The notes under the pieces are model-generated. The model ran no database searches, was not told the origin of the DNA, and saw only the letters and a list, made by a program, of their open reading frames with translations. From NCBI GenBank assembly GCA_036346225.1, contig JARFIW010001454.1, forward strand, positions 62,001 through 126,000: DNA of 64,000 nucleotides, read 5' to 3'. Origin of the DNA: Platerodrilus igneus. Taxonomy: Eukaryota; Arthropoda; Insecta; Coleoptera; Lycidae. The position numbers and the translations under genes were made by a program. This document shows, one piece after another, positions 5,740 through 33,525 of this stretch. Position 1 is the first letter of the stretch. Each line of letters opens with the position of its first letter.

Positions 5740-6060
5740 AAACTAAAGGTTTCAATCACAGTAGTAGGGTCGTTAGTGAGGAACCAGACTAAGACAGGTC
5801 CCCGAAAGAGGGCAGTGGCTCTTTCGGTACTTATATTGGCAGAGACCATAGGGGTCGGTATGGCAGTCTAAGACACACTACCGCGATGTGGAAGGCAACG
5901 AGAAACCACCACATTATCTCCCAAGTACACAGCATACTTAAATTGTAACAAACATGATGGCATTCTCTGGGGTAAAAGATTCCGGAGTTAAAATAGTCCC
6001 CATTCGGATCTCCGGGAGGGGACTACTTCGGAGGATGCGATCAGAAACTTAAAAATAAGA
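5740..6060 (+). other. 5' leader of the non-LTR element
   Basis: More GC-rich than its surroundings. It contains the blocks GTGGAAGGCAACGAGAAACC and CCCCATTCGGATCTCCGGGA, which I recognise as typical leader sequence of these elements in arthropod genomes. It runs directly into the endonuclease frame. Confidence 0.55.
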
Positions 6061-7025: not shown

Positions 7026-8346
7026 ATAACAAAGGATATCCTGAATTTAATAGAAGAAACACGAAAATACAAAAATAAATCAGACGAAACGGGAAATCAG
7101 AGATACAAAGCCATAAAATAGGAAATTATTCGAAAATGCAGGAAAGCTAAAGAACAATGGATTGATGAAAAGTGCAAAGAGGTACAAACGAAGATGGAAA
7201 TAGGAAAGCCAAACGAAGCATACAAAATAAATTAGAATGAATTTTAGGGATATAAAAATATATGGGACGCACAAGGAAACGCTATTATAGAAAACGTAGA
7301 GAAAGTGGGTAGATGGCAAGAATATATAGGGAATTTATATGCAGGAGAGGAACTAACTGCATTAGAACAGGAATCAGACATTGAAAATGATGACTTGGGT
7401 TATCCTATACTTTGAGATGAGTTTGAATTAGCATTAAAGAGTCTGAAAAATGGTAAGGCTCCGGGTACAGATAAGGTGCAAGCAGAAACTCTAAAAGCCG
7501 CTGGACAAGCAGTAACAGAACGTCTCTTCCAACTTGTAAGCTATATGTATGAGACAGGCGAGATACCCAAAGATTTCAAACGTTGCATCATAGTAACTAT
7601 ACCAAAAAAGAAAGGCTTCGATAGATGTAAAAATTTTCGAACAATAAGTTTGACAGCACACGTGTCAAAAATATTAACTAAAATTGTGCAAAGACGAATG
7701 GAAAAACGGGCGGAAGAAATACTAGGAGAAGACCAATTTGGGTTTAGGCGAAACAGGGGAACACGAGAGGCTATTTTAGCTCTAAGAGTGATAATGGAGA
7801 AAACAATAGAAAAAGAGAAAAGCGTGTATATAGGGTTTGTAGATCTGGTAAAAGCATTCGACAATGTAAAATGGAAAAAAAATGTTTGAAATACTCAAAA
7901 AGATTGGAATGAGTTATAGGGATAGACGAATAGTACATATCTTATACAAAGAGCAAACAGTAGTAATAGAATTAGAGCAGAAACGTAGAGAAGTAAACAT
8001 TAGGAAAGGGGTGAGACAGGGATGTGCCCTATCCCCATTAATTTTTAACTTGTACATAGAAGAGGCAATGAATACTGTCAAATGTAGGAAGACATTTGTA
8101 ATTACTATGCAGGGACAAAAAATTGATATGCTTAGATTTGCAGATGATATAGCGGTATTAACGTCTAGTAAGGAAGAATTAGAAGCTGCTCTTAATGAAA
8201 TGGAAACGGTTCTAACAGAGAGATACGGTATGAAAATTAACGTAACTAAAACTAATGTTCTAGTATACAAAGGTGGGGAAAATAAATCAAAAACAAGAAT
8301 ACAAGTATGTAACACGAACTTACAAGAGGTTAAGGAAGCCAAATAA
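7026..8346 (+). pseudogene. non-LTR element reverse transcriptase domain
   Basis: After several stops in 7026-7440, RT motifs follow: LKNGKAPGTDKVQAETLK, RCIIVTIPKKK, FRTISL, DQFGFRRNRGTREAI, FVDLVKAFD (motif A aspartates), then after a frameshift at about 7885, KGVRQGCALSPLIFNLYIE and LRFADDIAVL (the Y/F-x-D-D catalytic motif). The RT copies element RNA at the nicked target. The frame breaks at about 7885 and ends at 8346. Confidence 0.85.
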
Positions 8347-8891
8347 CGCAAGATGGGAAAAGCACAAAAGATATAAAACAAAGATTAGCACAAGGTCGTG
8401 CTACATTTAACAAGAAAAAGCAACTACTGTGCTCAAAGACCACAAACATAGAAACAAGGAAAAGATTGCTTAAAACATATGTGTGGAGCACAGCACTGTA
8501 CGGCTGTGAAGCCTGGAGAGTAGGAGAGCCGGACAAGAAAAAGCTAGAAGCCTTTGAAATGTGGTGCTACAGACGTATGATGAAGATATCATGGACAGAC
8601 AAAGTTAAGAACGAAGAGGTACTAAAATGGTAGGGGGAAGAAAGAAATATGTGGAAAACGGTAAAAAAGACGAGAGATAGGATGAAAGGCCACATACTAC
8701 GGCATGAGGGAATAGTGCAGAATATATTAGAAGCCAAGATAGGAAAAAAGAGAAGAAGAGGCAGACCTAGGTTAGACTACTGCACACAGATAGTAAAAGA
8801 AGTAGGCTGTAGGGGTTTCAGGGATATGTGTAGGCTAGCCCAGAATAGAAATCAAGGGAGGTACGCATCTAACCAATACCAAGATGGATAA
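8347..8891 (+). pseudogene. non-LTR element C-terminal region
   Basis: Frame-broken continuation of the RT protein. Recognisable blocks are YVWSTALYGCEAWR, FEMWCYRRMMKISWTDKVKN, then in the open piece 8649-8891 MKGHILRHEGIVQNILEAK and KKRRRGRPRLDY, ending RYASNQYQDG. This C-terminal order is typical of this element group. A TAG stop interrupts at about 8632. Confidence 0.8.
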
Positions 8892-8989
8892 ACTAATGAC
8901 GAAAAAATAACTGTGCTTAAACATGATGATTATTATAAGCAACTACAAGAATTGGTTGAGCAATATTCTCGAATAATGTTAGGTGTATG

Positions 8990-12184: not shown

Positions 12185-12190
12185 TTCATA
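12185..12190. repeat. Polinton-like element target site duplication, left
   Basis: TTCATA, identical to 26361-26366. A 6-bp duplication is the known signature of Polinton/Maverick integration. Confidence 0.8.
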
Positions 12191-13262
12191 AGTAGGGGGA
12201 GTACAGGCTTTCTGCCGCCACATTTGCTCCCAAATTTACATGTAAATTCCCATAAAGAGCAAATGTGGAGGAGTGACGTTCTGGACCCACATTTGCTCCA
12301 GCAACCACATTTGCTCCCAAATTTACATGTAAATCCCCATTAGGAGGAAATGAGGAAATCTCCTCATTTCCCTCCTCATTTTTCTCACTCATCTAGACCA
12401 AATAGTTTTCTTCGACGATATGTAAACCCCATAAGGAGCAAATGTGGAGATGTGACTCCCACCTTGCTCTCCGCCTTGCTCGGACACCCCACAACCATTT
12501 TGATTACGTCACACCCGCATTCTTTCCACCCGCGAGATAAATCTTTCTCCGCATTTCCACCCACAAGATAAATGTACCTTGTTTGGTATCAATTAATATT
12601 AGAATTTTCTCAGCTACCCGAATCTCTAAAAATTTCTTAGATATCATCATCCCCCAGGGAACTACCCCAATTTTTTGCTGGTAGCGATTTCTAACTGTCC
12701 TTATATATTTTTTAGCCATGCGATACATCAAACTAGTCTAGAATTTTCTCAGCTACCCGAATCTGCAAACAGATTTAAAATCCAACCACCCCTTACAAAG
12801 TTACACATATGCTCTCTGCGAGATAAATCTTTCTCCACATTTCCACCCACGAGATAAATCTATATTGTTTGGTATCAATTAATATTAGATTTTTCTCAGC
12901 TGCGCGAATCTCTAATAATTTTTAAGATAGAGTCATTCCCCAGAGAACTACCCTCATTTTAAGATTTTTTTTATCGGTAGCGATTTTTAACCGTCCGCAT
13001 AAATTTTTTTAGCCATGTGACATATCTTGCTGGTCTAGAATTTTATGCAGAATTTGAATCTGCAAACAGATTTGCAATAGGATCACCCCTTACCGTTTCA
13101 CACACGCCTTCTAAATTATAACTTTCCTGCCGCTCATACCTAAAAAAATCTAAAAACCATTCTTAAAAACTTTTTATTACAGACAATTTTTACTAATACA
13201 GTTTAAATTTTGTAAACCACATTTCTAAATACATATTCACAATTTTTATTCTTAACCTAGAA
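12191..13262 (+). repeat. terminal region of the left palindrome arm
   Basis: Outer 170 bases: two copies of a block with CACATTTGCTCCCAAATTTA and the perfect palindrome AATTTACATGTAAATT or its near copy. Next come two consecutive units of about 285 bases (starting near 12534 and 12819), each with GAGATAAATCTTTCTCC, TTGGTATCAATTAATATTAG and CTCAGCT. Related units occur at about 15586-15700 and in the second element at 55690-55860. No gene lies here. The region abuts the truncated polymerase N-terminus. Confidence 0.75.
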
Positions 13263-13266
13263 CTCC

Positions 13267-14053
13267 TTATATCGGTTTATACTTATTAATATTAATTTCT
13301 AAATAGAGCACCTTTTCCAAAGACCAACCGGGCCCACATGTTTCAAATTCCTCTGATTTTGTTCTTATGGTTTCGCTTAAGACCTCGTACATATTTTCCA
13401 GATTACTAGAAGACGTTATAACCATATTTTTTGTGTTAAAGGATTTCACATCGGTAGTCTCTTCCCCCATTTTGGTGTAAACACCGTAGAGTTCGCAATA
13501 GACTTTTATTGCTGTATGTTGTATTCTCTTTTAATTAATTAATCGAATAAATAAATCGCTTTTTCTGATTCCGAAGAAACTTGGACCCTCCATCGTCGAC
13601 ACTGGCGTTCTTTATGCGATAGCTAGCCATACGGTTGTTAAACGCAGTGCTAACCATTTCTACACCATCGTCGCTAGTAACGGTAACTGATGCATTTTTA
13701 TGTTTGTTGCTCCGTAGATGACCAGGGTATGCAGACTTTAACACTTCCATGTCGCACACTTTACACAGAATCCGTGACTGCTTCGTACAAGGCCCTTTAA
13801 CAGCTGGCGGAGTTGAACGTTTACGGCTTAATGACATGCCGTGCTGTTTTTCCTTGTGTCGCTGTAAGTTGTCCATTTTCGTAAAAGCGATACCGCAAGA
13901 CCCACAGTTTAAGTACTTTGCTGCGGACGGATGTATAAGCTTAACCGTAGACGATGCTACACCACGACATTTGTTCTGGTGCCGTTTGAGAGCATTTTTT
14001 CAGGTATAGGAGGCACCGCAAGAGTCACATTTAAAAACGTTTGCAGGTACCAT
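13267..14053 (-). pseudogene. polB: family B DNA polymerase, zinc-finger N-terminus, left arm
   Basis: Starts at 14053. Three zinc-finger-like units follow: CDSCG...RHQNKC, CGSCGIAFTR...HKEKQH and CKVCDMEVLK...HLRSNKH. Then comes a conserved NNRMASYRI block, and after a frameshift near 13500 the SFNTKN, SEEFETCGPGWSLEKVLYLE block. This domain order is known from insect Polinton-like family B polymerases, where exonuclease and palm domains follow. Here the gene ends after about KYKPI, against terminal-repeat sequence. An in-frame TGA breaks the first zinc finger, and the same TGA is in the right arm. It would replicate the element; this copy cannot. Confidence 0.7.
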
Positions 14054-14265
14054 TTTAGTACAGAACAAAATCCGCACTATAAGACTTTGGTTAAACTTGT
14101 AAGCAAACTAACTTATAACTAAAGAGTTTACTCTTGCGTACCTGCTTTATGTACCCTATAGAATGCAAACCGAAGGTTTCCAAAGACGGCCGAACGATGT
14201 TGAGGATTCAGCGGGAAACTAAATGACGTCATCCTTTGCCAATCCTTACTGCTCGTCTAGTACAT

Positions 14266-15141
14266 TTACCGCCAATGCATGCACCTGGTTCGCATCGTCG
14301 ATGGTGCGAATGCCGTTAGTAGAAACATCGGAAACGTCTTCCATGTTATACGGATCGCGTGCATATTAAAAATCCAAAAGGGTGGTAGCACACGCACACA
14401 AATTGTGTGCAAGTCGTGCTTTAGAAGACGCAGTGCTACTATAAACAAAAACTTAATAAAAACACTTTAAACCTTTACTAAGGAAATACCAAACTTGTTG
14501 TCTACAGAATACTTACTAATAAAGCAATTTAATTTTAAATAACTTCTACGTCATATTTTAGGAAATGGTAGGCTTGAATATTTTCTAAATGAATCACCAA
14601 GCGAAAGTATATGCTTAGCGGTATTAAAATTAACCATTAATTTACCATTTTTACGACCGTGGTTAATTATAGATTAAAATTTAATTTGTTCACGTTCGAG
14701 CTTCCCGTAAACTAACATATTTTATAGTAGCAGTGCGCTGTATAATACATGCATACCCCTTCGCCGCGCTACTGCTATTTTTGTAGTTGCTAGAAAAAAT
14801 CACTCTCCTTTTTACTGTTAGGACCGATGCAAAGCACCATTTTATACTTTCTATAGCACATCGCGCACTTTTTCGTCTGATAATTAAATTTTGCTTTTGT
14901 AGGCTTTTACACTTTCGCATATTTAAACATCTAATACGATCGATTAACCACTTTCGATTATTCTAACGGGAACCACCATACATTCCGCCGCACCGTTCTT
15001 TTTGAATACAACGATCCGATGGGCTTCCACACTAACACCTAACGTATCTTTCCTATTATTTGTTAAACAAAAACTACTGGTATCGCCATTCCCGTATGCG
15101 GACGCAAGCAGATGTTTGTGGATGTGTACGAGAATATGCAA
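14266..15141 (-). other. left-arm region with small mirrored ORFs of unknown nature
   Basis: Minus-strand ORFs 14944-15141 (65 residues) and 14690-14920 (76 residues, basic) are matched by 22868-23065 and 23089-23319 in the right arm with few changes. I recognise no domain. Conservation between arms is due to duplication, so it does not prove they are genes. Confidence 0.35.
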
Positions 15142-15391
15142 CCATATACATTAATCACTCTAAGCTATTTTATTTAGTCCAAGAAAACTACTATTTTTCT
15201 AAACCACAATTACTAATCGCCTTTTTAGGTTTAACACTTCTACCATTCCCCAATGACTGGTGCTACGTACATGAAAACTTTAATTTTTTATTGGAAAGAA
15301 TTCTTATTCTCCCACGCACTGTTGCGTTGTTGCATGCCCACCCCTTTTGGGAATATATGCTCGTTATTTATAGGTTGTAGGACCCTCTGTT

Positions 15392-15584
15392 TTACATAAC
15401 TACACTTCGTGTAACCCCTTTACTCTTTTTAATCGCGTCTTTCTTGCCTACAATACAGTAGCACTTAGGCTTACTACCAACAAATTCTAATACTGGACCC
15501 CCATTAAATTCGTCTTTAAATTTCCCTACAACTTTTTTGTCGACAAGTGTTATATTGTATTTATTATACGCGGTCTAGTCACTC
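15392..15584 (-). pseudogene. polB: family B DNA polymerase, C-terminal fragment, left arm
   Basis: Open to its TAA stop, with KYNITLVDKKVVGKFKDEF, LEFVGSKPKCYCIV and KKSKGVTRSVV. It resembles the conserved tail of the same insect polymerase family (kFkDE...EFVGLrsK.Y...KKaKGV). It lies on the gene-proximal side of the N-terminal fragment rather than after it, so the polymerase pieces are permuted. A degenerate terminal-repeat unit (about 15586-15700) sits directly next to it. The right-arm twin has an extra A and is out of frame. Confidence 0.6.
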
Positions 15585-15585
15585 T

Positions 15586-15700
15586 TTTAAGATAAATATA
15601 TCTTTTTTGGTATCAACTAATATTAAATTTTTCTAGGGACCCCAAATCTGTAAATAGATTTTAAATAGGACCACCCCATACAAAGGTATACCTTTTAAAG
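15586..15700 (+). repeat. internal degenerate copy of the 285-base terminal unit, left arm
   Basis: Contains TTGGTATCAACTAATATTAA and a block like the terminal units (CAAATCTGTAAATAGATT). Mirrored at about 22322-22440. Confidence 0.6.
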
Positions 15701-15956
15701 ACCCAAATCACTAATTTTTGCTCATCTTTATTAACTCCATCTTTAGAACCTTTTTTTGCTACGCAAGACATATGCCTTAGCCAACCATCTCCCGAGAAAT
15801 CTAAAACCGCTGTGTTCCGCGAACAGAACGTGGAGATAACGCGGATACTCTGTCAACCGAGATAGAAACAGGAAGGATTTGGAAGGTCGGAGAAGAACTT
15901 AAAAATTATGAAATTTGAAAACTAATATATACAATAGATTTACAAAATCTGTACAA

Positions 15957-16244
15957 CTATCTTATATCTTTATGCCTCCCATGCGTATGTTGATGTGCTT
16001 CCAGGATGACGTTACGCTTATCATCTTTCCTCGATAAACTAATTTTATTAATTATCTGCTTGTACAAATCGTATTTTTTACTCCGGATACATACGCAGGC
16101 AAGTACTCGATACCATCCAAATAAAGAATTGGATGCTTGGTGACTGTTAACTTCTGCATCCCTCGTGTACGCCCAAACACATCCCAACCCGTGTGCACTT
16201 CTGCCCATGCGCACCCCTGCGCGCGCACTCCTACCTATACGCAC
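15957..16244 (-). CDS. small ORF, unknown, left arm
   Basis: 95 residues. The N-terminal half is a low-complexity GC-rich repeat (arginine, glycine and alanine from GTGCGCATGGGC-like units). The C-terminal half, with SLFGWYRVLACVCIRSKKYD, is mirrored almost unchanged at 21768-22106. No function recognised; possibly the end of a decayed gene. Confidence 0.3.
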   Translation of the reverse strand: MRIGRSARAGVRMGRSAHGLGCVWAYTRDAEVNSHQASNSLFGWYRVLACVCIRSKKYDLYKQIINKISLSRKDDKRNVILEAHQHTHGRHKDIR

Positions 16245-16274
16245 TGCCCATGCGCACCCCTTTCTGTGCGACTG

Positions 16275-16835
16275 CTATTTCGTGGTAACGTCACAGTCTT
16301 TTGTAAACAAAGAGCAATGTAATACTATTTTAAGATGTTTATTCTGACATACATAACAAAAAGTCCTTAGTTCGTCTTTGTTATCTGCCATTTTGATAAA
16401 TACGTTTTTAGAATAACCTTTTAAAAAGTATACGGATTTAGCACCATCCTTTTCCGCAAGAACGCCTACATAACTAAAGGAGTCTTTTTTACTAACCGCA
16501 AATGCATACAGCTTGTAGAACCCGGATGTATTTAAGTCAGTCCATCGGCACATAAAATAATCTTTTAATTCTTCCTCATTTTCTCTAATAAGATGTTCTT
16601 TGTCTAACACAACTTTGTATTGTTTGCGTATTGTCGCAGTGTTTTCCATGTAGTCCAATTTTCGCCTTTTTCCATCCATTTCCTCTAATTCCAGTTGTCT
16701 TTTCCTTCCACTTACAGCGTATGGCATGCATAATGGGGCAATTTCCTTTAGCGTAAACAGATAGAGTTTACTACCACTATTTACGCGTTGTCGAACAACC
16801 TCTGGGCGAATGTTAGGCGTATTTATCAACCCCAA
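16275..16835 (-). pseudogene. unknown protein (MGLINT family), left arm, C-terminus deleted
   Basis: The first about 170 residues match the 204-residue ORF at 20561-21175. After NKDEL the left arm jumps to unrelated sequence because about 600 bases present in the right arm (21030-21605) are missing. See the right-arm entry for the description. Confidence 0.6.
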
Positions 16836-16946
16836 TTCCGAAATGACTATTTCTTTTGGAATTGTAGAATATGACGTTGCAGATTGTGTGAAATATGTAC
16901 TACCTGCTTTAATGTAGCACTTGTGTAAGATCTTTATTTTATCTTA

Positions 16947-18364
16947 GCTGTATTCCTCCTCTACTATCTCCAAATAATTTACAGGTAAATAGTTAAAACT
17001 AAAAGCCGAAAACACATACTTTATCAATTTTCCCTTTCCTTTGGTTTTCGGACAACAATTTGCAACCCCGTCAATTTCTTTGCATTGCCATTCCCCCAAT
17101 ACATGTACTGTAGTAGGTCATTATACGCTAAACAGCAGCTATTTTGTAGCTTGTACGATAGCTTACTCAACATTTTGGCAAGTGGTACCGAGTACATTGG
17201 CACCTTTAGGAAGTATAACATACTATCTTCTAATAAGGTTGAACAGTCTTTTAAGGGATTATACACCCGTTCCGCACTGACATAGCTTCCAATTGTACAG
17301 TTGTACATTGTCGCTTCCAATCGCGTAATACCATGTTCTTCGGCCAAAGTAGACGCAAATGTTCCCCTTAAACGTACATCTAGACAACGTAAAAAACTAG
17401 TATATGATTGCCAAGTTGTTTATTAACACCAGGACTTGTTATCTGACACACAAATTTGTTGTATATCTTAATTCTTGCATTGGTTGTTAGTTAACAACAC
17501 AAGGTACTTTTTAGTATGTCCTCGACTACGTACACTGGCCCGCCCGTCCGGCCGCCCACTAGCTTATCTAACACACAAATTTGTTGTATATCTTAATTCT
17601 TGCATTGGTTGTTAACCATGTTAAACAATCAATTCCCACAGTTTTATTGTTGTCAACTATAATATTGCACTTTTCTTCGTATTCGCCCTTATAGCAAAAG
17701 TTATGGTTTGTAGTTAAATAATTACACATCTCCATCTTGCTAAATATGCCCGCAAAATCTTGGGTTACATCCATCTCAAAAAAATAGTAATAATCTTTTT
17801 TGAGTTCGTCTAATATATCTGGTAGTTCCTACAATAAAGTTTCCAACTTAACATCTGCTAGTTCCACTTTGTATGGAACACATATAGGATTTTGGAACTT
17901 TTTTTCAATACCTTTGAGGTCTTCTTTTCCGATAATTTCTTTTACCCCCAGACCCATCTTGTTAGTGCTTTCCAGAGAAAACGGAAGCTTAGCTTTAACA
18001 CCATGCCTAGCGAAAACAAACCGGTCGAACTTTCTTTGTAGATAGCTGTTAAATGCACCACAAATTTCTTTTATAGGATAAACATCCTTTTGTTTGCAGA
18101 TGTAGGCTCGGCGTCGAAAAGGTTGCAAATTTTAACCAACATTATATTGCCACAAAATGGTTCTGTAATTGGTGTTTGTAGTCCACCAGTCAGCATCTGC
18201 TCGCATTCGACATAACAAATATTACCATAGCTTGATGCACTCGTACGCAGGTAGCACAACAACATTTCGATCTTTCGTAATTGAATACGAAAATTGCCCT
18301 TATGTACCCTACAGAGTGGGGGTGAATATTGCCGAAGATAACCGAATATGTCGGGCACCGTCAT
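16947..18364 (-). pseudogene. large unknown protein, left arm
   Basis: Four open pieces in mirror image of 19032-20452: 18364-18071, 18128-17829, 17774-17568 and 17347-17024. Here the second piece keeps an uninterrupted stretch (YLQRKFDRFVFARHG) that is shifted in the right arm. The same 125-base insertion as in the right arm, with its GC-rich core, breaks the frame at about 17455-17580. The left copy loses frame near 17050. Confidence 0.6.
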
Positions 18365-18670
18365 ATCGCTTACATTCTCTTGTTTAGGAACAGTTTTGTT
18401 ATCCGACCTAGATCGGATTTAATCCGACCTAGGTCGAACTGGGCAGGAGTGCGCATCGACATATGTCCGGATATATGTAGGATGTTAGGTTAGGATGAAA
18501 TTACCCCATAGGGTGAAATTACCCCATAGGGTAAAATTGCCTCCGACCTAGGTTGGATGTGGACTTGTCAGAAGATAGGTTAGCTAGTGTTGTCCGGAGT
18601 TAGGTTAGGTTAGCTGATCTTGTGTGGACTTAGGTTAGATAAACGTAAAAATTGATAGATTAGGCCGTTT

Positions 18671-18734
18671 TTAATGAGTTTTCTCATTAAAAAGCAATTA
18701 GTGCTAATGGGTGTTTAATGAGAAAACTCATTAA
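18671..18734. repeat. centre of the giant palindrome with nested hairpins
   Basis: TTAATGAGTTTTCTCATTAA (18671-18690) and its inverted copy (18715-18734) flank a 22-base unpaired centre (18692-18713). Each 20-mer is itself an 8-base-stem hairpin with a TTTT or AAAA loop. The centre could therefore form a large cruciform or three small hairpins. Confidence 0.85.
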
Positions 18735-19031
18735 AACGGCCTAACCTATCAATTTTACTTTTATCTAACCTAAGTCCACACAAGTCCAGCTAACCTAACC
18801 TAACTCCGGACAACACTAGCTAACCTATCTCCGACAAGTCCACATCCAACCTAGGTCGGAGGCAATTTTACCCTTGGGGTAATTTCACCCATGGGGTAAT
18901 TTCATCCTAACCAACATCCTACATATATCCGGACATATGTCGATGCGCACTGCCCAGTTCGACCTAGGTCGGATTAAATCCGATCTAGGTCGGATAACAA
19001 AACTGTTCCTAAACAAGAGAATGTAAGCGAT

Positions 19032-20452
19032 ATGACGGTACCCGACATATTCGGTTATCTTCGGCAATATTCGCCCCTACTCTGTAGGGTAAATAAGAGC
19101 AATTTTCGTATTCAATTACGAAAGATCAAAATGTTGTTGTGCCACCTGCGTACGAGTGCATCAAGCTATGGTAATATTTGTTATGTCGAATGCGAGCAGA
19201 TGCTGACTGGTGGACTACACACACCAATTACAGAACCATTTTGTAGCAATATAATGTTGGTTAAAATTTGCAACCTTTCTGACGCCGAGCAAACATCTGC
19301 AAACAAAAGGATGTTTATCCTAAAAAAGAAATTTGTGCTGCATTTAACAGCTATCTACAAAGAAAGTTCGACCGGTTTGTTTCCGCTAGGCATGGTGTTA
19401 AAGCTAAGCTTCCGTTTTCTCTGCACTAACAAGATGGGTCTGGGAGTAAAAAAAATTATCGGAAAAGAAGACCTCAAAAGCATTGAAAAAAAATTCCAAA
19501 ATCCTATATGTGTTCCATACAAAGTGGAACTAGCAGATGTTAAGTTGGAAACTTTATTGTAGGAACTACCAGATATATTAGACAAACTCAAAAAAGATTA
19601 TTACTATCTTTTTGAGATGAATGTAACCCAAGATTTTGCGGGCATATTTAGCAAGATGGAGATGTGTAATTATTTAACTACAAAGCATAACTTATGCAAT
19701 AAGGGAGAATACGAAGAAAAGTGTAATATTATAGTTCACAACGATAAAACTGCGGGAATTGATTGTTTAACATGGTTAACAACCAATGCAAGAATTAAGA
19801 TATACAACCAATTTGTGTGTTAGATAAGCTAGTGGGCGGCCGGACGGGCGGGCCAGTGTACGTAGTCGAGGACATACTAAAATGTACCTTGTGTTGTTAA
19901 CTAACAACCAATGCAAGAATTAAGATATACAACAAATTTGTGTGTCAGATAACAAGTCCTGGTGTTAATAAACAACTTGGCAATCATATACTAGATTTTT
20001 TACGTTGTCCAAATGTACGTTTAAGGAAAACATTTGCGTCTACTTTGGCCAAAGAACATGGTATTACGCGATTAGAAGCGACAATATACAACTGTACAAT
20101 TGGAGGCTATGTCAGTGCGGAACGGGTGTATAATCCCTTAAAAGACTGTTTAACCTTATTGGAAGATAGTATGTTATACTTCCTAAAGGTGCCAATGTAC
20201 TCGGTACCACTTGCCAAAATGTTGAGTAAGCTATCGTACAAGCTACAAAATAGCTGCTGTTTAGCGTATAATGACCTACTACAGTACATGTATTGGGGGA
20301 ATGGCAATGCAAAGAAATTGACGGGGTTGCAAATTAAGTTGTCCGAAAAACCAAAGGAAAGGGAAAAATTGATAAAGTATGTGTTTTCGGCTTTTAGTTT
20401 TAACTATTTACCTGTAAATTATTTGGAGATAGTAGAGGAGGAATACAGCTAA
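19032..20452 (+). pseudogene. large unknown protein, right arm
   Basis: Open pieces 19032-19562, 19617-19823 and 19940-20452 read as one protein of about 450 residues broken by a frameshift, a TAG (about 19560) and a 125-base insertion (about 19823-19947). Visible features are two Cys-rich spots near the start, [64 protein letters not shown] and a C-terminal YLEIVEEEYS. The order KIYN...hydrophobic...R-x-E-x-x-x-Y looks like proteins I have seen beside Polinton-like polymerases, and could belong to a replication protein. That is speculation, and I name no family. Confidence 0.55.
19778..19952 (+). repeat. 125-base insertion with about 48-base direct repeats, right arm
   Basis: A block beginning AACAACCAATGCAAGAATTA occurs at 19778-19827 and again at 19903-19952. 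Between them is a GC-rich core (GGGCGGCCGGACGGGCGGGC) unlike the AT-rich surroundings. The same structure is in the left arm at about 17455-17600. Confidence 0.8.
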
Positions 20453-20560
20453 GATAAAATAAAGATCTTACACAAGTGCTAAATTAAAGCAGGTAGTACA
20501 TATTTCACACAATCTGCAACGTCATATTCTACAATTCCAAAAGAAATAGTCATTTCGGAA

Positions 20561-21175
20561 TTGGGGTTGATAAATACGCCTAACATTCGCCCAGAGGTTG
20601 TACGACAACGCGTAAATAGTGGTAGTAAACTCTATCCGTTTACGCTAAAGGAAATTGCCCCATTATGCATGCCATACGCTGTAAGTGGAAGGAAAAGACA
20701 ACTGGAATTAGAGGAAATGGATGCAAAAAGGCGAAAATTGGACTACATGGAAAACACTGCGACAATACGCGAACAATACAAAGTTGTGTTAGACAAAGAA
20801 CATCTTATTAGAGAAAATGAGGAAGAATTAAAAGATTATTTTATGTGCCGATGGACTTACTTAAATACATCCGGGTTCTACAAGCTGTATGCTTTTGCGG
20901 TTAGTAAAAAAGACTCTTTTAGTTATGTAGGCGTTCTTGCGGAAAAGGATGGTGCTAAATCCGTATACTTTTTAAAGGGTTATTCTAAAAACGTATTTAT
21001 CAAAATGGCAGATAACAAAGACGGACTAAAGAATGCGGTTTTCGTAACTTTGGCGTACACCACACGTAAAGGGGTTCCGCTAAACATTGTATATTTGCCT
21101 AGTAAAGAACCTTTTGGATCATTTAAAACCGAAGTCTTACAACCTATAACAAGCATATATTTCCAAAAGTGGTGA
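20561..21175 (+). CDS. unknown protein (MGLINT family), right arm
   Basis: 204 residues from an ATG preceded by a long AT-rich leader; the longest intact frame in the palindrome. Residues about 40-110 are highly charged and helical with a basic SGRKRQLE / AKRRKLDYME patch that could be a nuclear signal or coiled coil. Residues about 120-200 look alpha-beta (FYKLYAFAVSKKDSFSYVGV, AVFVTLAYTTRKGVPLNIVY). It lies between the large unknown gene and ORF 21169, overlapping the latter by 7 bases. I recognise no family. It may be a structural or replication accessory protein, but nothing shows which. Confidence 0.55.
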   Translation: MGLINTPNIRPEVVRQRVNSGSKLYPFTLKEIAPLCMPYAVSGRKRQLELEEMDAKRRKLDYMENTATIREQYKVVLDKEHLIRENEEELKDYFMCRWTYLNTSGFYKLYAFAVSKKDSFSYVGVLAEKDGAKSVYFLKGYSKNVFIKMADNKDGLKNAVFVTLAYTTRKGVPLNIVYLPSKEPFGSFKTEVLQPITSIYFQKW

Positions 21176-21549
21176 ACATGCAACTACGCAACAGTGTGTG
21201 GGAGAATAAGGATTTCCTCCAATACCTACAAGGAGAAGTCGATCAAGCTAACAACATACGTATCCATGATATAGTGAGAAAGCTGCGATTAAAAGATTGT
21301 CACAAGCTGCAAGAATTACACGAAGGAATGGATCTGGTTGTCGGTGAAATCAAAGAGTTTAAATATAAAGGCAAACATCGGCACACTTTACAATTTGAAA
21401 ACCTAGACGGTCTCTATGTATCAAACTATTGGCTAGAAAAGGAGATAGAGGACTTTGGTGTCGATCTAAATTTTAAGCTGCGAATAAAATTAGATAAAAT
21501 TAAAACCATTCCATACAAACATAAAGAAAGGACTGTCTTCTGTGTATAA
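21169..21549 (+). CDS. unknown small protein, right arm only
   Basis: 126 residues, overlapping the previous ORF by 7 bases. Residues 50-90 (MDLVVGEIKEFKYKGKHRHT ... LQFENLDGLYVSNYW) have the alternating pattern of a small beta-barrel and faintly resemble single-stranded-DNA-binding OB folds of large DNA elements; low confidence. It is absent from the left arm, where the deletion removed it. Its first 90 bases have a decayed duplicate at 22650-22719. Confidence 0.5.
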   Translation: MVNMQLRNSVWENKDFLQYLQGEVDQANNIRIHDIVRKLRLKDCHKLQELHEGMDLVVGEIKEFKYKGKHRHTLQFENLDGLYVSNYWLEKEIEDFGVDLNFKLRIKLDKIKTIPYKHKERTVFCV

Positions 21550-21705
21550 CTTTGTATTAAAATTAAGTTTAAATGGCTCCATGCTTGGCATTAAATATTT
21601 TTAATTTTTGTTATGTATGTCAGAATAAACATCTTAAAATAGTATTACATTGCTCTTTGTTTACAAAAGACTGTGACTTTATCACGAAATAGCAGTCGCA
21701 CAGAA

Positions 21706-21830
21706 AGGGGTGCGCATGGGCAGTGCGCATGGGCGGAGGTGCACACGCTCAGGGGTGCGCATGAGCAGTGCGCATAGGTAGGAGTGCGCGCGCAGGGGTC
21801 CGCATGGGCAGAAGTGCACACGGGTTGGGA
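21706..21830 (+). repeat. GC-rich tandem repeat, right arm
   Basis: Several imperfect copies of GTGCGCATGGGCAG. The left-arm counterpart (16185-16265) is shorter, so copy number differs between arms. Confidence 0.6.
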
Positions 21831-22106
21831 TGTGTTTGGGCGTACACGAGGGATGCAGAAGTTAACAGTCACCAAGCATCCAATTCTTTATTTGGATGGT
21901 ATCGAGTATTTGCCTGCGTATGTATCCGGAGTAAAAAATACGATTTGTACACGCAGATAATTAATAAAATTAGTTTATCGAAGAAAGATGATAAGCGTAA
22001 CGTCATCCTGGAAGCACATCAACATACGCATGGGAGGCATAAAGATATAAGATTGTTGTACAGATTTTGTAAATCTATTGTATATATTAGTTTTCAAATT
22101 CCATAA
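21768..22106 (+). CDS. small ORF, unknown, right arm
   Basis: 112 residues. Mirror of 15957-16244. GC-rich repetitive 5' half (tandem GTGCGCATGGGCAG-like units, 21706-21830), then a conserved-looking SLFGWYRVFACVCI / KKDDKRNVILEAHQHTHGRH half. No function recognised. Confidence 0.3.
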   Translation: MRIGRSARAGVRMGRSAHGLGCVWAYTRDAEVNSHQASNSLFGWYRVFACVCIRSKKYDLYTQIINKISLSKKDDKRNVILEAHQHTHGRHKDIRLLYRFCKSIVYISFQIP

Positions 22107-22439
22107 TTTTTAAGTTCTTCTCCGACCTTCCAAATCCTTCCTGTTTCTATCTCGGTTGACAGAGTATACGTGTTATCTCCACGTTGTGTTCGCGGAACAC
22201 AGCGGTTTTAGATTTCTCGGGAGATGGTTGGCTAAGGCATATGTCTTGCGTAGCAAAAAAAGGTTCTAAAGATGGAGTTAATAAAGATGAGCAAAAATTA
22301 GTGATTTGGGTCTTTAAAAGGTATAACTTTGTATGGGGTGGTCCTATTTAAAATCTATTTACAGATTTGGGGTCCCTAGAAAAATTTAATATTAGTTGAT
22401 ACCAAAAAAGATATATTTATCTTAAAAGAGTGACTAGAC

Positions 22440-22621
22440 CGCGTATAATAAATACAATATAACACTTGTCGACAAAAAAAGTTGAAGAGAAATTTAAAGA
22501 CGAATTTAATGGGGGTCCAGTATTAGAATTTGTTGGTAGTAAGGCTATGTCCTACTGTATTGTAGGCAAGAAAGACGCGATTAAAAAGATTAAAGGGGTC
22601 TCACGAAGTGTAGTTATGTAA
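22440..22621 (+). pseudogene. polB: family B DNA polymerase, C-terminal fragment, right arm
   Basis: Mirror of 15392-15584. An extra A in the run at about 22470 shifts the frame, after which KFKDEFNGGPVLEFVGSKAM and KKIKGVSRSVV are read. Directly after the stop is a decayed duplicate of 21128-21222 (to about 22719). Confidence 0.55.
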
Positions 22622-22867
22622 AACCGAGGGTCCTACGACCTATAACGAGCATATATTCCCAAAAGGGGTGGGCATGCAACAACGCAACAGTGCGTGGGAG
22701 AATAAGAACTCTTTCCAATAAAAAATTAAAGTTTTTATGTACGTAGCACCAGTCATTGGGGAATGGTAGAAGTGTTAAACCTAAAAAGGCGATTAGTAAT
22801 TGTGGTTTAGAAAAATAGTAGTTTTCTTGGACTAAATAAAATAGCTTAGAGTGATTAATGTATATGG

Positions 22868-23743
22868 TTGCATATTCTCGTACACATCCACAAACATCTG
22901 CTTGCGTCCGCATACGGGAATGGCAATACCAGTAGTTTTTGTTTAACAAATAATAGGAAAGATACGTTAGGTGTTAGTGTGGAAGCCCATCGGATCGTTG
23001 TATTCAAAAAGAACGGTGCGGCGGAATGTATGGTGGTTCCCGTTAGAATAATCGAAAGTGGTTAATCGATCGTATTAGATGTTTAAATATGCGAAAGTGT
23101 AAAAGCCTACAGAAGCAAAATTTAATTATCAGACGAAAAAGTGCGCGATGTGCTATAGAAAGTATAAAATGGTGCTTTGCATCGGTCCTAACAGTAAAAA
23201 CGAGAGTGACTTTTTCTAGCAACTACAAGAATAGCAGTAGCGCGGCGAAGGGGTATGCATGTATTATACAGCGCACTGCTACTATAAAATATGTTAGTTT
23301 ACGGGAAGCTCGAACGTGAACAAATTAAATTTTAATCTATAATTAACCACGGTCGTAAAAATGGGAAATTAATGGTTAATTTTAATACCGCTAAGCATAT
23401 ACTTTCGCTTGGTGATTCATTTAGAAAATATTCAAGCCTTCCATTTCCTAAAATATGACGTAGAAGTTATTTAAAATTAAATTGCTTTATTAGTAAGTAT
23501 TCTGTAAACAACAAGTTTGGTATTCCCTTTGTAAAGGTTTAAAGTGTTTTTATTAAGTTTTTGTTTATAGTAGCACTGCGTCTTCTACAGCACGACTTGC
23601 ACACAATTTGTGTGCGTGTGCTACCACCCTTTTGGATTTTTAATATGCACGCGATCCGTATAACATGGAAGGCGTTTCCGATGTCTCTACTAACGGCATT
23701 CGCACCATCGACGATGCGAACCAGGTGCATGCATTGGCGGTAA
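22868..23743 (+). other. right-arm region with small mirrored ORFs of unknown nature
   Basis: Counterpart of 14266-15141. Plus-strand ORFs 22868-23065 and 23089-23319 are the best preserved; both lack recognisable domains. Confidence 0.35.
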
Positions 23744-23954
23744 ATGTACTAGACGAGCAGTAAGGATTGGCAAAGGATGACGTCATTTAGTTTCCCGCTG
23801 AATCCTCAACATCGTTCGGTTGTCTTTGAAACCTTCGGTTTGCATTCTATAGGGTACATAAAGCAGGTACGCAAGAGTAAACTCTTTAGTTATAAGTTAG
23901 TTTGCTTACAAGTTTAACCAAAGTCTTATAGTGCGGATTTTGTTCTGTACTAAA

Positions 23955-24737
23955 ATGGTACCTGCAAACGTTTTTAAATGTGACTCTTGCGGTGCCTCCT
24001 ATACCTGAAAAAATGCTCTCAAACGGCACCAGAACAAATGTCGTGGTGTAGCATCGTCCACGGTTAAGCTTATACATCCGTCCGCAGCAAAGTACTTAAA
24101 CTGTGGGTCTTGCGGTATCGCTTTTACGAGAATGGACAACTTACAGCGACACAAGGAAAAACAGCACGGCATGTCATTAAGCCGTAATCGTTCAACTCCG
24201 CCAGCTGTTAAAGGGCCTTGTACGAAGCAGTCACGGATTCTGTGTAAAATGTGCGACATGGAAGTGTTAAAGTCTGCATACCCTGGTCATCTACGGAACA
24301 ACAAACATAAAAATGCATCAGCTACCGCTACTAGCGACGATGGTGTAGAATTGGTTAGCACTGCGTTTAACAACCGTATGGCTAGCTATCGCATAAAGAA
24401 AACCAGTGTCGACGATGGAGTGTCCGAGTTTCTTCGGAAGCAGAAAGAGCGATTTATTCGATTAATTAATTAAAAAAAAATACAACATACAGCAATAAAA
24501 GTCTATTGCGAACTCTACGGTGTTTACACCAAAATGGGGGAAGAGACTTCCGATGTGAAATCCTTTAACACAAAAAATATGGTTATAACGTCTTCTAGTA
24601 ATCTGGAAAATATGTACGAGGTCTTAAGCGAAACCATAAGAACAAAATCAGAGGAATTTGAAACATGTGGGCCCGGTTGGTCTTTGGAAAAGGTGCTCTA
24701 TTTGGAAGTAAATATTAATAAGTATAAACCGATATAA
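23955..24737 (+). pseudogene. polB: family B DNA polymerase, zinc-finger N-terminus, right arm
   Basis: Mirror of 13267-14053. From the ATG at 23955: CDSCG...RHQNKC (with the shared in-frame TGA at about 24006), CGSCGIAFTR...HKEKQH, CKMCDMEVLK...HLRNNKH, then NNRMASYRI. After a frameshift near 24475 comes the 67-residue open piece 24534-24737 with SFNTKN and GPGWSLEKVLYLEVNINKY. The protein stops there and terminal repeats begin. In related elements this stretch leads straight into the exonuclease domain, as seen in the second copy at 55870-57082. Confidence 0.7.
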
Positions 24738-26360
24738 GGAGTTCTAGGTTAAGAATAAAAATTGTGAATATGTATTTAGAAATGTGGTTTACAAAATTTA
24801 AACTGTATTAGTAAAAATTGTCTGTAATAAAAGGTTTTTAAGAATGGTTTTTAGATTTTTTTAGGTATGAGCGGCAGGAAAGTTATAATTTAGAAGGCGT
24901 GTGTAAAACGGTAAGGGGTGATCCTATTGCAAATCTGTTTGCAGATTCGAATTCGGCATAAAATTCTAGACTAGCAAGATGTGTCACATGGCTAAAAAAA
25001 TTTATGCGGACGGTTAAAAATCGCTACCGATAAAAAAAAATCTTAAAGTGAGGGTAGCTCTCTGGGGGATGATTCTATCTGAAAAATTCCTAGAGATTCG
25101 CGAGTTATGTATCCCCCAATTACATATATATATATTGATATATTGAATCGAATAGGAATTATTAGAAATTATTAAGTAAAAGTATAAGTTCAATGCAACA
25201 TTGTAACACAAGGATAACCCAGAGAGGTTATCGACAGTTCATGTGAACGGACATGCAACTTTGCATCCGTGAGGGCAGTGATACTGCAGGTGGCAGGTCA
25301 CAGGCGGTCAACAGACCGCAATTACTTAGAATTAAGTTGTTACATTGTAATAAAGTGTACAATTAAAGAGAAACGCAGACATGAGATCTGCAAGTTCTCA
25401 CAGCCGTGTGAGGGGCAGGTTATTATAAAAGTCTTCAAACTCCATACTTCGTTGTTTGAGCTACTCACCAGTACAATTAATTATTTTTTTATTAAAGTTA
25501 TTATGAACCAGCTATTCCAAATTTCTTGTAATTTCTGTTTAACTTATTAAATAAAAAATTGTTAAAGTGTCGACGTTTTTTTTAAAAAACCAGCTCCAAA
25601 GGCCCGAACTTTAACTCGCGTAGCTGAGAAAAATCTAATATTAATTGATACCAAACAATATAGATTTATCTCGTGGATGGAAATGTGGAGAAAGATTTAT
25701 CTCGCAGAGAGCATATGTGTAACTTTGTAAGGGGTGGTTGGATTTTAAATCTGTTTGCAGATTCGGGTAGCTGAGAAAATTCTAGACTAGTTTAATGTAT
25801 CGCATGGCTAAAAAAATTTATAAGGACAGTTAGAAATCGGTACCAGCAAAAAATCTTAAAATTGGGGTAGTTCCCTGTGGGATGATGATATCTAAGAAAT
25901 TTTTAGAGATTTGGGTAGCTGAGAAAATTCTAATATTAATTGATACCAAACAAGGTACATTTATCTTGTGGGTGGAAATGCGGACAAAGATTTATCTCGC
26001 GGGTGGAAAGAATGAGGGTGTGACGTAATCAAAATGGTTGTGGGGTGTCCGAGCAAGACGGAGAGCAAGGTGGGAGTCACATCTCCACATTTGCTCCTTA
26101 TGGGGTTTACATATGATCGAAGAAAACTATTTGGTCTAGATGAGTGAGGAAAATGAGGAGGGAAATGAAGAGATTTCTTCATTTCCTCCTTATGGGGATT
26201 TACATGTAAATTTGGGAGCAAATGTGGATGCTGGAGCAAAATTGGGTCCAGAACGTCACTCCTCCACATTTGCTCTTTATGGGAATTTACATGTAAATTT
26301 GGGAGCAAATGTGGGTTTTGGGAGCAAATGTGGCGGCAGAAAGCCTGTATTCCACCTACT
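24738..26360 (-). repeat. terminal region of the right palindrome arm
   Basis: Mirror of 12191-13262: two 285-base units, then the CATTTGCTC / AATTTACATGTAAATT modules, then the CCTACT end. Interrupted by the solo LTR at 25103-25616. Confidence 0.75.
25103..25616 (+). mobile_element. solo LTR, errantivirus-like ends
   Basis: Starts AGTTATG and ends TTTAACT, flanked by the 4-bp duplication CGCG (25099-25102 and 25617-25620). The left arm has the uninterrupted target. AGTTA...TAACT ends and a 4-bp alternating duplication are typical of the gypsy/17.6 group of insect LTR elements. An AATAAA-type signal lies near 25350. No internal coding sequence. Confidence 0.7.
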
Positions 26361-26366
26361 TTCATA
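26361..26366. repeat. Polinton-like element target site duplication, right
   Basis: TTCATA, matching 12185-12190. Confidence 0.8.
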
Positions 26367-27978
26367 TTTAGTTCTGAATTTATTTTTAGTAAGATTTACA
26401 AAGAGCTTTCCAGTATCGACTCCCAATCGGGATGATTATTACCTACCAAACAGCGATCCGGCTTTATGGCCTGAGATAGTCAACGATAATTTAATCGATA
26501 GTTACCTAGGAAAAGGAGCCTAGTATTTTCAAAATTGTAAATCTGTTAAACAATATAAGGTTTCAATAAGATCATATAAATCACAAAATAGAAAGTTTTC
26601 CGATACAACATTGTACAAAACTCTCGTGATTGGAGAAACTGTTAGACGCCAGGGATTGTTATATTCTTCTAGCAATGGCAACATTTTCTGTTTTGCTTGC
26701 AAACTTTTCAATCGAAAAAAAAGCGTTCCATTTAACCGTGGATTTTCGGATTGGAAAAAGGCATTGAAAAAATCGCATCACACGAAAACAGCACTAATCA
26801 TAGAAAGGAGTAATTTCAAAAGTAGAGTAGATACAAATATTTGTGAAGCATTTGCAAAAGAAAATGCTTATTGGATAGAAGCACTTAAAAGAATTGTTGT
26901 GATTAAATTTTTAGCGGAAAGAGGTTTGCCATTTCGCGGCGATAACGAGATTTTTGGGTCCTAATCAAACGGTCTTTATATGGGAATATTGGAAGTAGTC
27001 GCAACATTCGATCCTTTTCTAAAGAACCATATTAATAATTTAGGCAATAAAAGAAAGGGCAATGTTTCCCACGTGTCCAAAACCGTATGTGAGGAGTTTA
27101 TTGAATAAATGTCCGCAAGAATTCGTAGAAAAATTATAAAAGATATTAAACTGGCGAAGTATTATTTGCTAATAGTAGACTCAACTCCAGATCTGTCGCA
27201 CGTGGATCAATTATCAATTGTTATTCGCTACTGTTCAACTGAAGGAGGCGTATAAGTGCATAAAAGATTTTATGTTTTGTACCTATTTTTTCTCATGCAA
27301 GAAAACCTTTAGCCGAAGTGGTGATCAATTTTCTTACTGAAAATGAACTTACTTTAAAATATTGTCGAGGACAGTCATACGACAACGCAAGTAACGTGGC
27401 CGGATATAAGGATCTACAGACTTACATTTGCGAAATAGTAGATGTTGCTTTTTATCCCATGGTTTACGTATTCACTTAATTTAGTTGGAGAATGTGCTGT
27501 TGGCGTAAGCCTTGAAACCACAAAAATTTTTCTTTTTTTGAAAAAACTGTATGCATTTTTTGGAGCCTCCACATACCGGTGGCATTTACTACAACAGCAT
27601 ATACAAAAAAACTATGCGGTAAGTCGCTTAGTAGCACTTTTTGGATCTGTAAGGAAGATGGGGCAAAAGCTTTAAATACAAGTTATTCTCAAATATATGA
27701 TTGTGTAGAAAAGATATCAAAGGATCCTTTAGAAAAAATTAAACAAAATTAGAAGCGCTGGGTCTGTCTAAACAAATGATACAAATACAAAATCTTGTTA
27801 TGACTACATTTTGGAATAAAATTCCAAGACATTTTGGTGAGGCTTCCAAAATACTTCAGAAACTAAGCCTTGATTTGTTATTTGGTGAGAATGTATTGAA
27901 AAGTCTCATAGCAATTACTTCTTCATACCAAGACCAATTTGATGTTTTTTAAGAGGCAAAAAATTTACTCGCACAGAA

Positions 27979-29955: not shown

Positions 29956-30084
29956 TCGAATTCCAAGTAGAATTTTAGTAATTTTACTCCAGGAAACTGG
30001 CGATCTGAGAGAGAGAGAGAGTTTCAGTTTTTTTTTTGTATAAATTTAAGAGTATTTTAGTGTGCGTGAGAGTGATTTGAATGT

Positions 30085-31358
30085 ATGCAGAGAAAGGAGT
30101 GGTTAAGGAGCCAAGGAGTGGAAATTGAAAGTGACGATAGTGCCTTGTGTGATAAAACTTCGAAAATGGAGGAAGCTGGAGGTAGTAGGGATCAGTCGAG
30201 GACGGAATCAGGAGATCAAGGAAACGAGATAATAATGAGGATGCTTGAAAAAATGAATGAGACGTTAAGCGGGGTTAGAGAGGACTCAAATAGAAAATTG
30301 GACCAATTAAGCCAGGAATTAGGGGATAAAATAGAAAAATCGACGAGAGAATTTTCTGAATTTAAAAATAGTTTGACGGTAAAAATGGGGGAAGTTGAAA
30401 ATAGGGTTGATAAAAATGAGTGTGATATTAGAGGTTTAAATCTGGGAATGGGACAATTAAGGACTGATGTAAGGATTTTCTGTGAGGACGAGATTAATGC
30501 AAAAATGACTAAGGTAACGGACTCGTGTAAGGATCAGTTAGGTCGGGTTGAGAGAGAAGTAACCGGGATTAAGCATAATGTAGCGACTTTAATGGGAGAT
30601 GGTCCAAGGTTTGTAACAGGTAATGTGTCTTTAGAGCAGCAAATGAAATTTTATGGGTTAGTAGAGTTAACCCGCAGATATTTATTAATAACGTTAGAGG
30701 TTTAATAAATAACGTATACGATGAACAGGCAAAGTTAAATGTTGTAAAAGCTTTACTAAAAGATCATGCTGAAGTTTGGTATAATTTAATAGGACAGGAA
30801 ATTGACACCTACACGGACTTTGAGGACAGATTTTTAAAGCATTATTGGAGTGACCACAGACAAGACCAGGTACGAGACGACTTAATCACGGGAAAATTTA
30901 AGGCAGAATTTTTAGGAAGTAGGGAGCAATATGCTATACGAAAGTATAGCATTGCGAAGCAACTGAACCCACCACTGACGGACCGACAGATTATAAAATA
31001 TTTGTCGCGACATTTCGAGGTTGAGGTAAGACAACACGTAGCACTACAAAACATAGTGGACAGGGAAATGTTTCTGGAGTACCTGCAGAGGTATGATGAT
31101 GTAAGCAGTGGACGACCTCGGGAACCTAGAGAACGACAGATAAACACGGTTAGATTCGACAGCAGACGGGACAATTACGCTAAACGGAAGAATAATTATC
31201 AATATCAGCGACAAAATTGGGAACCGCGACGGCCATATTATAGAAGCAACAGTGTAGGAAGGGGACCTGCACCGAGACCGGGACCTACAAGACAGAACAG
31301 TTCACCGGACATACGGGGGGACTTCAAATACAAACACGGAACGAGAGGAAACGTCTAG
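30085..31358 (+). pseudogene. gag: gypsy-2 Gag
   Basis: Piece 30085-30705 is a charged, likely coiled-coil N-terminus with repeated EKMNE / DKIEKS heptads. A frameshift near 30700 leads into a capsid-like domain (ALLKDHAEVWYNLIG, FEDRFLKHYWSD) and a C-terminal arginine, asparagine and tyrosine-rich tail to 31358. No CCHC knuckle is seen; the basic tail may do its job. One shift breaks the gene. Confidence 0.75.
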
Positions 31359-31451
31359 GACATACGCTGAAGTGACAGCTAGACCAGGACCGAGTAGGGA
31401 AAACAGATTTGGACAGGATTTTTAAAGCAGGACAAACCACTAGACATCACT

Positions 31452-31889
31452 GTGTACAAATATAAACATCCTAGGGAATTTTTGAAAATAGAAGAAGAAA
31501 TTGAGGCAGAAATAGTAGAAACATTTTGTTTGCCCATAATAGAAATTAAAATTTTTGAGAAAAATTTAGGAGCATTATTAGATTCAGGAGCTGAGGCGAG
31601 TTTGGTATCGGAGGAATTCGTCAATGAAATTAAAAATAAAGTGTGTGACAGGATAATGCCAATAAAAAGAAGTCACCTGGTTGCGCCGAATAAAAAACGA
31701 TTTGCTGTTGTAAATAGCGTAGTTATTTTGAAAGTAGAGTTAGGTTCAGTAAGCTGTGAACAAGAATTTATAATTGTACCTGGGTTAAAGTTTAAAGGGA
31801 TATTAGGGGTCGATTGCATGACGAAGTTAGGGGTTATAATAAATATGGAGAGGAAAATAGTTAGGATTGTGGATAGGATATTGCCCTGA
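31452..31889 (+). CDS. gypsy-2 aspartic protease region
   Basis: 145 residues. LLDSGAEASLVSEEF is the retropepsin D-S-G active site, and VPGLKFKGILGVDCMTKLGV is the usual flap-to-C-terminal region. It would mature Gag-Pol. It is separated from RT by a stop at 31889. Confidence 0.8.
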   Translation: MYKYKHPREFLKIEEEIEAEIVETFCLPIIEIKIFEKNLGALLDSGAEASLVSEEFVNEIKNKVCDRIMPIKRSHLVAPNKKRFAVVNSVVILKVELGSVSCEQEFIIVPGLKFKGILGVDCMTKLGVIINMERKIVRIVDRILP

Positions 31890-31984
31890 AAGACAAGTTA
31901 TGATGTCACAAAAGATGACATGGGGTTATGTATTAATAGTATAGAAGAAGATGATGAAGAAGTGAGAGAGATCGACACCATTAG

Positions 31985-33491: not shown

Positions 33492-33525
33492 ACGGAACCG
33501 GGTTTTAAAAAGTATAGCATAATAG

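Follow-up and report, generated by a model that had tools for sequence, protein, structure and literature searches.

The genome of the beetle Platerodrilus igneus (host assembly 2.71 Gb) contains a family of elements with Polinton-like ends in which nearly the whole element is an inverted repeat. The member described here occupies positions 12191-26360 of a 64-kb stretch of that genome (the window) and is a single insertion of one palindromic unit. We favor, with a probability of roughly 0.6, the view that it is the integrated snap-back (copy-back) genome of a Polinton-type element, one arm of which was copied back before the product was inserted. Copying back from one end would account for identical ends, for arms that are sisters within each copy, for fold points that differ between copies, for the occurrence of both symmetric and looped forms, and for repeated pieces of the palindromic hairpin, here called P, that lies at many of the folds.

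A single palindromic insertion

The element begins with AGTAGG at 12191 and ends with CCTACT at 26360, and it lies between exact copies of a 6-bp target-site duplication, TTCATA, at 12185-12190 and 26361-26366. Its terminal repeat (12191-12234, plus strand) pairs with 26317-26360. Inside these ends, a left arm of 6.5 kb (12191-18666, minus strand) and a right arm of 7.7 kb (18738-26360, plus strand) approach a meeting point at 18702, and the genes of both point outward. The arms are built from 14 inverted-repeat blocks, as seen by self-comparison of the window, and a self-alignment of 4,688 columns (16364-21032) crosses the centre without a break. A preliminary description of this sequence had proposed AG...CT ends, the TTCATA duplication, two long inverted arms with an axis near 18702, and integration as a unit in fold-back form, all of which is borne out by these data and by the inverted arms of several kilobases found at other loci. 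The combination of such long arms with an exact 6-bp duplication excludes a chance origin of the palindrome.

Aligned with each other, the arms differ by 163 substitutions at 6,488 aligned sites (2.5%, ranging from 1.2 to 5.0% per 500-column block) and by 24 gaps, of which three are large (518 bp, 571 bp and 45 bp). The first two of these stretches are present in the right arm only. The 518 bp at 25103-25620 are taken as an insertion because they break a 118-bp repeat unit and none of the seven other copies compared has them; the 571 bp at 21033-21604, containing the end of open reading frame (ORF) C and most of ORF D, are taken as a deletion from the left arm because their ORF parts also occur in other copies. 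The left arm has two subterminal repeat units (12532-12960, plus strand) whose starts are 286 apart; their right-arm counterparts lie at 25038-25705, where the unit is split by the insertion, and at 25848-26000. In five open frames, with codons containing gaps or stops skipped here and in the between-copy counts below, there are 17 synonymous and 49 non-synonymous changes between the arms, a ratio of non-synonymous to synonymous rates (dN/dS) of 0.77, and a six-frame recount gave 0.84. As such differences are near neutral, the arms would have diverged mainly after they had been joined and inserted.

A palindromic element family in the genome

When the genome was queried with the left end, both ends were found in inverted order at eight loci, including the window, among the best 40 of 7,277 candidates. 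The other seven were each read in two pieces, and all eight copies have inverted arms of several kilobases: 4,341 bp at 98.0% identity in C139, 1,570 and 318 bp in C405, 2,099 and 329 bp in C1146, 6,332 bp at 98.7% in C1721, 2,577 and 838 bp in C990, 1,957 bp at 98.9% in C909, and 6,810 bp at 99.0% in C1608. A separate query yielded C646, with 4,064 bp at 97.4% and 1,183 bp at 92.4% (left end read only), and C1147, with 4,354 bp at 98.5%. Inverted arms of this size are therefore present in nine of the nine other copies read on both sides, the seven plus these two. A family with whole-element inverted repeats, raised in the preliminary description together with the question of whether same-end copies elsewhere would be palindromes or single arms, thus exists in the P. 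igneus genome, and the other copies read are also palindromic.

All nine copies with both ends read start with AGTAG and end with CTACT, as does C646 at its left end. Six of the nine (the window, C1146, C1721, C990, C1608 and C1147) have duplications that agree at six of six bases and vary from copy to copy (TTCATA, AATATA, CAAGTT, CATACA, GCTGGG, GACGTT). Five of six bases agree in C139 (TGTTTA/TGTGTA) and C405 (GACGTG/GACGTC), and the C909 duplication, CACAGT, is complete only if the right end carries three extra bases. In a tree of 28 rows based on a 1.1-kb segment, into which C650, C891 and C975 (short segments) and other loci were not entered, the two arms of a copy are sisters in eight of eight copies, with starred support; identity is 96.5-99.9% within these eight copies and 91.9-97.1% to the nearest other copy.

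A protein query with the PolB N-terminal-like piece of the arm gave 16,234 first-look candidates, a figure that is not a copy count, and the 150 that were scored all passed. These include 21 pairs of neighboring genes less than 20 kb apart, 19 of which (the window among them) point outward at spacings of 4.9 to 14.1 kb and none inward. C1147 (L088/L089) and the loci matched by its junction query, described below, form a palindromic family that resembles the window arms only in patches and carries another frame, of 169 aa, in each arm; many of its loci are 99-100% identical over 100 bp, so this family is probably recent.

Centres and fold points

At the centre of the window lies a 71-bp hairpin unit, H (18667-18737), an imperfect inverted repeat with a short spacer and matching halves on either side, which folds as DNA at -22.8 kcal/mol (z -10.6, for 18668-18737). 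Other copies carry P, a near-perfect palindrome of 110 nt with a GC-rich core and a folding z of about -20. Two P-like halves flank H in the window, on the left at 18619-18666, by comparison with P by eye, and on the right at 18738-18783, by a BLAST match of right-arm positions 37-80 to P (arm positions being numbered outward from 18702).

Two types of centre can be distinguished. In each of C1608, C1721 and C990, one of the arms extends fully inward to a repeat array, the H hairpin unit and P, and the other arm is joined to the P edge or close to it, at arm positions ~468, ~998 and ~3760-3790, respectively; C909 retains the P core, with its join at ~5035. The window represents the second type, H between two P-like halves with both arms complete, and its 301-bp centre is symmetric at C646, C1027 and C943 as well (both strands, 288-301 query bases). 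Of these three only C646 was read, and it is palindromic with rearrangements of its own that are common to both its arms. P or H is found at the fold in five of the eight end-paired copies. The remaining three are C139, which folds from 3076 to 2515, C405, whose short arm starts from 5110 and whose centre is a self-inverted, simple-looking stretch, and C1146, whose arm starts from ~4700 and whose centre is about 5 kb of other DNA, partly resembling a long interspersed nuclear element (LINE). At the centres of L045, L046, L048 and L049, a short tandem array, GGTCATATG/GGTCATGTG, stands between arm and H hairpins; an array of this type was not seen in the window copy.

A query with P and H together (40 scored of 1,198 candidates) led to short stretches of 32 loci which, having been picked for containing P, are uninformative on how frequently P occurs at folds. 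In 28 of them P is followed by an inverted arm. Twenty of these, mapped on the C1608 arm, have 20 distinct join positions, from K376 to K6580, although some were placed only within the 12-147 nt between arm match and P; C1408 and C1667:10.66M are re-oriented, and five match the arm of a longer-interior subfamily (C899 only partly). In C1261 a 278-bp spacer is followed by another H-P end, inverted, so that two P ends face each other, and C1108 has an additional partial P in direct orientation. Among 40 far-side ends, 16 are at most 8 nt from the edge of P, 15 are inside P and 9 are beyond it, by up to 51 nt. Eleven of the 12 exactly placed joins show an overlap of 1-4 nt and the other a 2-nt insert.

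How specific a junction can be to its copy is illustrated by a 200-bp query that spans the junction of C1147. Among the best 40 of 1,413 candidates, only C1147 itself matched from end to end; 35 loci matched the arm side alone (34 at 99-100% and one at 96%) and four matched the P-H side alone, at 100%. Ten of the arm-side matches are five inverted pairs 3.3-7.3 kb apart, so the 35 represent fewer copies. As a shared junction would rank first, the arm sequence is widespread and the junction is not.

Coding content

On the plus strand of the right arm lie ORF A (18978-19562), ORF B (19901-20452, with a longer, 250-aa relative in L038), ORF C (20483-21175), ORF D (21127-21549) and a gene consisting of a C2H2-like part (24009-24473, under the Pfam cut-offs) and a PolB N-terminal-like end (24474-24737). 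ORFs A, B and D had no family match, and no homologue of ORF C was found. Left-arm counterparts are present on the minus strand for the C2H2-like frame (13535-13999), ORF C (16275-16943, its end changed at the missing 571 bp) and ORF B (17024-17419). In many of the 150 scored matches, the C2H2-like and PolB-N-like pieces are one open frame of 276-278 aa, and in L092 this frame, of 278 aa, stops at the PolB-N-like end, where PolB remnants go on into the exonuclease part. The piece matches 57030-56926 of the window (34% over 35 aa, E 1.7e-4) and L087 (42% over 33 aa, E 1.3e-6), and corresponds to the stretch preceding the exonuclease part of this genome's PolB remnants. Judged by these alignments, the product is taken as a putative stand-alone PolB N-terminal domain.

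No integrase match was obtained among the 13 window-arm frames of at least 86 aa to which the scan was limited, nor any Pfam match to a capsid, ATPase or protease in the same 13; eight frames gave no convincing match to PHROG, and the PolB body was not recognized in the arms, where only the N-terminal-like piece is present. No protein homologues were found for ORF C or for the C2H2-like frame, viral contig scans gave no match, and solved-structure searches with the arm frames returned nothing or weak matches at E 0.4 or worse. The structure predicted for ORF C, with a mean predicted local distance difference test (pLDDT) score of 35.6, was unusable. ORFs A-D could be divergent versions of the capsid, ATPase and protease genes, and ORF B might be a replication initiator, an impression that comes from its wording only.

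The frames appear to be constrained between copies. For ORF C, the ratio of non-synonymous to synonymous differences per site (pN/pS) is 0.27-0.43 against five other copies, and for all frames combined it is 0.44-0.55 against seven other copies, versus 0.84 between the window arms.

Origin of the palindromes

In the model we prefer, a Polinton-type polymerase would begin at the AGTAGG end and copy one arm inward. Near the inner hairpin (P, or H in the window copy), and less often elsewhere, the new strand would fold back. Outward copying might then resume at once, which would yield the symmetric form seen in the window, or it might resume after a switch to a more distal arm position, which would yield the asymmetric form of most copies read. 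The product, with the same end on both sides, would be inserted by a Polinton-type integrase acting in trans, with a 6-bp duplication, and its two arms would thereafter decay independently. The near-neutral differences between the window arms, set against the tighter constraint between copies, count for copy-back, and the direct partial P of C1108 and the facing P ends of C1261 are as template switching would give.

Several observations weigh on the other side. No free or replicating molecule was seen among these integrated copies, and the arms lack a recognized polymerase body or integrase gene. P was not found at the fold of C139, C405 or C1146, so folding is possible without it. Beyond P, the arm of C1527 runs in direct orientation, C1667:9.498M contains LINE-like sequence that is also present in the window, and the sequence of C958 and C1040 is unmatched. 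C1397 has a fold and 612 bp of inverted arm, its second end was not found in the 16 kb read, and it was left out of the count of two-ended copies. Two of the 21 neighboring gene pairs point the same way. Whole-genome specificity of junctions to copies rests on the one junction of C1147, the matched loci being known from query matches, and short overlaps at joins would equally be expected of end joining after a break. ORF C alone gives 0.40 between the window arms, on 10 changes, so the contrast in constraint depends on all frames combined. Finally, the symmetric centre shared with C646, C1027 and C943 could mean that the palindrome was inherited as such.

The main rival to copy-back is erosion after insertion: full, perfect palindromes centred on P or H would have been inserted, and one-sided deletion by the host near the centre would have left the varied folds. 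We regard this as possible but doubtful. Full palindromes do exist (the window and C646), the far-side ends are concentrated at the hairpin, a pattern that could result if an extruded hairpin were cut close to its tip, and the 1-4 nt overlaps at 11 of 12 joins would fit; that palindromes can provoke breaks and deletions is described in the part of PMC7999016 drawn on here. However, loci 99-100% identical to C1147 over 100 bp of arm lack its junction, so erosion would need to be very fast, and yet the window and C646 are still symmetric despite at least 2.5% divergence of their arms. Moreover, the dyad of P is retained where P is present, with loss on one side only, and neither the direct partial P of C1108 nor the facing P ends of C1261 are simple deletions.

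An inherited hairpin-like genome that replicates as a palindrome, its arms homogenized in each round and the differences in fold being secondary noise, seems improbable to us. The symmetric centre common to the window and three loci (288-301 query bases, both strands) speaks for it, as do the rearrangements of C646, which are common to its two arms and not found in those of the window and so indicate arms that evolve in concert; against this, most copies read have asymmetric folds of their own, and concerted arms are equally explained by remaking the palindrome from one arm. The preliminary description's single fixed palindromic genome is too simple an account: C646, C1027 and C943 share the centre of the window copy, but most copies do not. 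A dimer of a whole Polinton is not supported by the arms, each of which has one known terminus only, and of a protein-primed polymerase only an N-terminal PolB-like piece is recognized in each arm. Two adjacent insertions in opposite orientation (the separate insertions with different flanks that the preliminary description had considered), or a misassembly, would explain the inverted arms themselves and nothing further, and can be dismissed as very unlikely, because one duplication encloses the whole unit, sister arms occur in eight of eight copies, 19 of 21 gene pairs point outward and none inward, the arms are 2.5% apart, and other loci of like design have their own duplications. The second Polinton of the window, described below, was rejected as a parent of the palindrome: relatives of its PolB in C1284 and C1142 show neither arm DNA nor ORFs A-D within the 9.9 kb read of each.

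The snap-back reading can be extended, rather tentatively, to a replicating monomer with unlike ends, one of Polinton type and the other a terminal P/H hairpin, which would integrate only after snapping back to a form with two Polinton-type ends; we think this somewhat unlikely as matters stand.

Relationship to known systems

Polintons have AG ends and 6-bp target-site duplications. The elements here have the same AG...CT ends (9/9 copies), 6-bp duplications and a PolB N-terminal-like piece, but nearly the whole element is an inverted repeat with the same end on both sides, the inverted arms measure ~1.9 to 7.7 kb as opposed to hundreds of bases to ~1 kb, no integrase, ATPase, protease or capsid gene was recognized in the scanned frames, and the PolB body is absent. 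Membership among the Polintons is thus partial: since the ends and duplication fit and the polymerase body, integrase and virion genes were not found in the frames scanned, we call the elements Polinton-like, or Polinton-end-bearing, and not Polintons, which retains the ends and duplication, though not the gene content, of the original Polinton/Maverick-like assignment. Foldback and Galileo-type transposons also have long inverted arms and variable middles; they differ in their ends, duplication length and genes, and here the arms make up about the whole element and many folds abut a conserved hairpin. The polymerase and integrase content of Polintons, and Ginger elements, are treated in the portions of PMC6431247 and PMC2836005 used here; the latter portion gives 4-bp duplications (5-bp in TDD-4/5) and TGTNR ends for Ginger, and the 6-bp duplications and AGTAG ends rule out an element of that type.

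In form, the elements resemble the snap-back genomes of adeno-associated virus (AAV), self-complementary molecules that are either symmetric or asymmetric with a loop, as set out in the part of PMC8235507 consulted. The elements here likewise have self-complementary arms that come from a single molecule, in symmetric or looped form; the AAV forms are, in that account, packaged subgenomic parvovirus molecules, whereas ours are integrated and have target duplications and Polinton-like ends. Hairpin-capped inverted duplications of the type produced by origin-dependent inverted-repeat amplification (ODIRA) likewise involve an inverted duplication by template switch, but in the sections of PMC4689423 and PMC10766183 relied on they are rearrangements of host genomes, as opposed to a mobile family that has termini of its own. 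Among the titles and abstract openings listed from the open-access literature, none showed palindromic Polintons.

Neighboring sequence

A second Polinton-like end, different from those of the palindrome, lies at 55493-57039 of the window on the minus strand, with the terminus AGTAGATGGATGACAGG at ~55493 and broken PolB pieces; a subterminal repeat at 55707-55824, related to the units of the palindrome, is common to both elements. One of its PolB pieces has five database relatives (best E 1.5e-14) and gave 6,608 first-look genome candidates, of which 150 were scored. Its match to Pfam PF03175 is weak (E 0.059), and the copy ends soon after a piece that we read as polymerase motif A. At 9.4-9.9 kb in L086 and L087, oriented with PolB on the plus strand, unassigned frames of 145 and 163 aa that are alike in both copies follow PolB on the minus strand.

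In the right flank, the frame at 26524-26964 reads, we presume, like a hAT/ZMYM-type transposase, for which Pfam gives a weak GATA finger match only; the palindrome may have inserted into an older transposon or next to one. What we take to be LINE endonuclease and reverse transcriptase frames occupy 5992-8945, and 8275-8945 is 92% identical to sequence adjoining P in C1667 (L054) and is also found inside C1146. Frames at 30076-40886 are presumably those of long terminal repeat (LTR) retrotransposons, with a BEL/Pao-like one at 34154-38938, and tandem arrays with units of 80 bp and 32 bp lie at 50357-50669 and 52899-53343.

Implications

Snap-back genomes are by-products of the replication of linear DNA viruses. 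The P. igneus genome seems to preserve a large fossil record of them, to judge from the differing folds of the copies read and from one arm gene with 16,234 first-look candidates. If this is true, sequence data could be used to measure copy-back replication and what becomes of long palindromes in chromosomes, and a fold-back step may belong to the life cycle of Polinton-like elements. Should the monomer with unlike ends prove to be real, a high-copy family would depend on folding back, not as an accident but as an obligate part of its life cycle, and integrated palindromes would be its normal proviral form.

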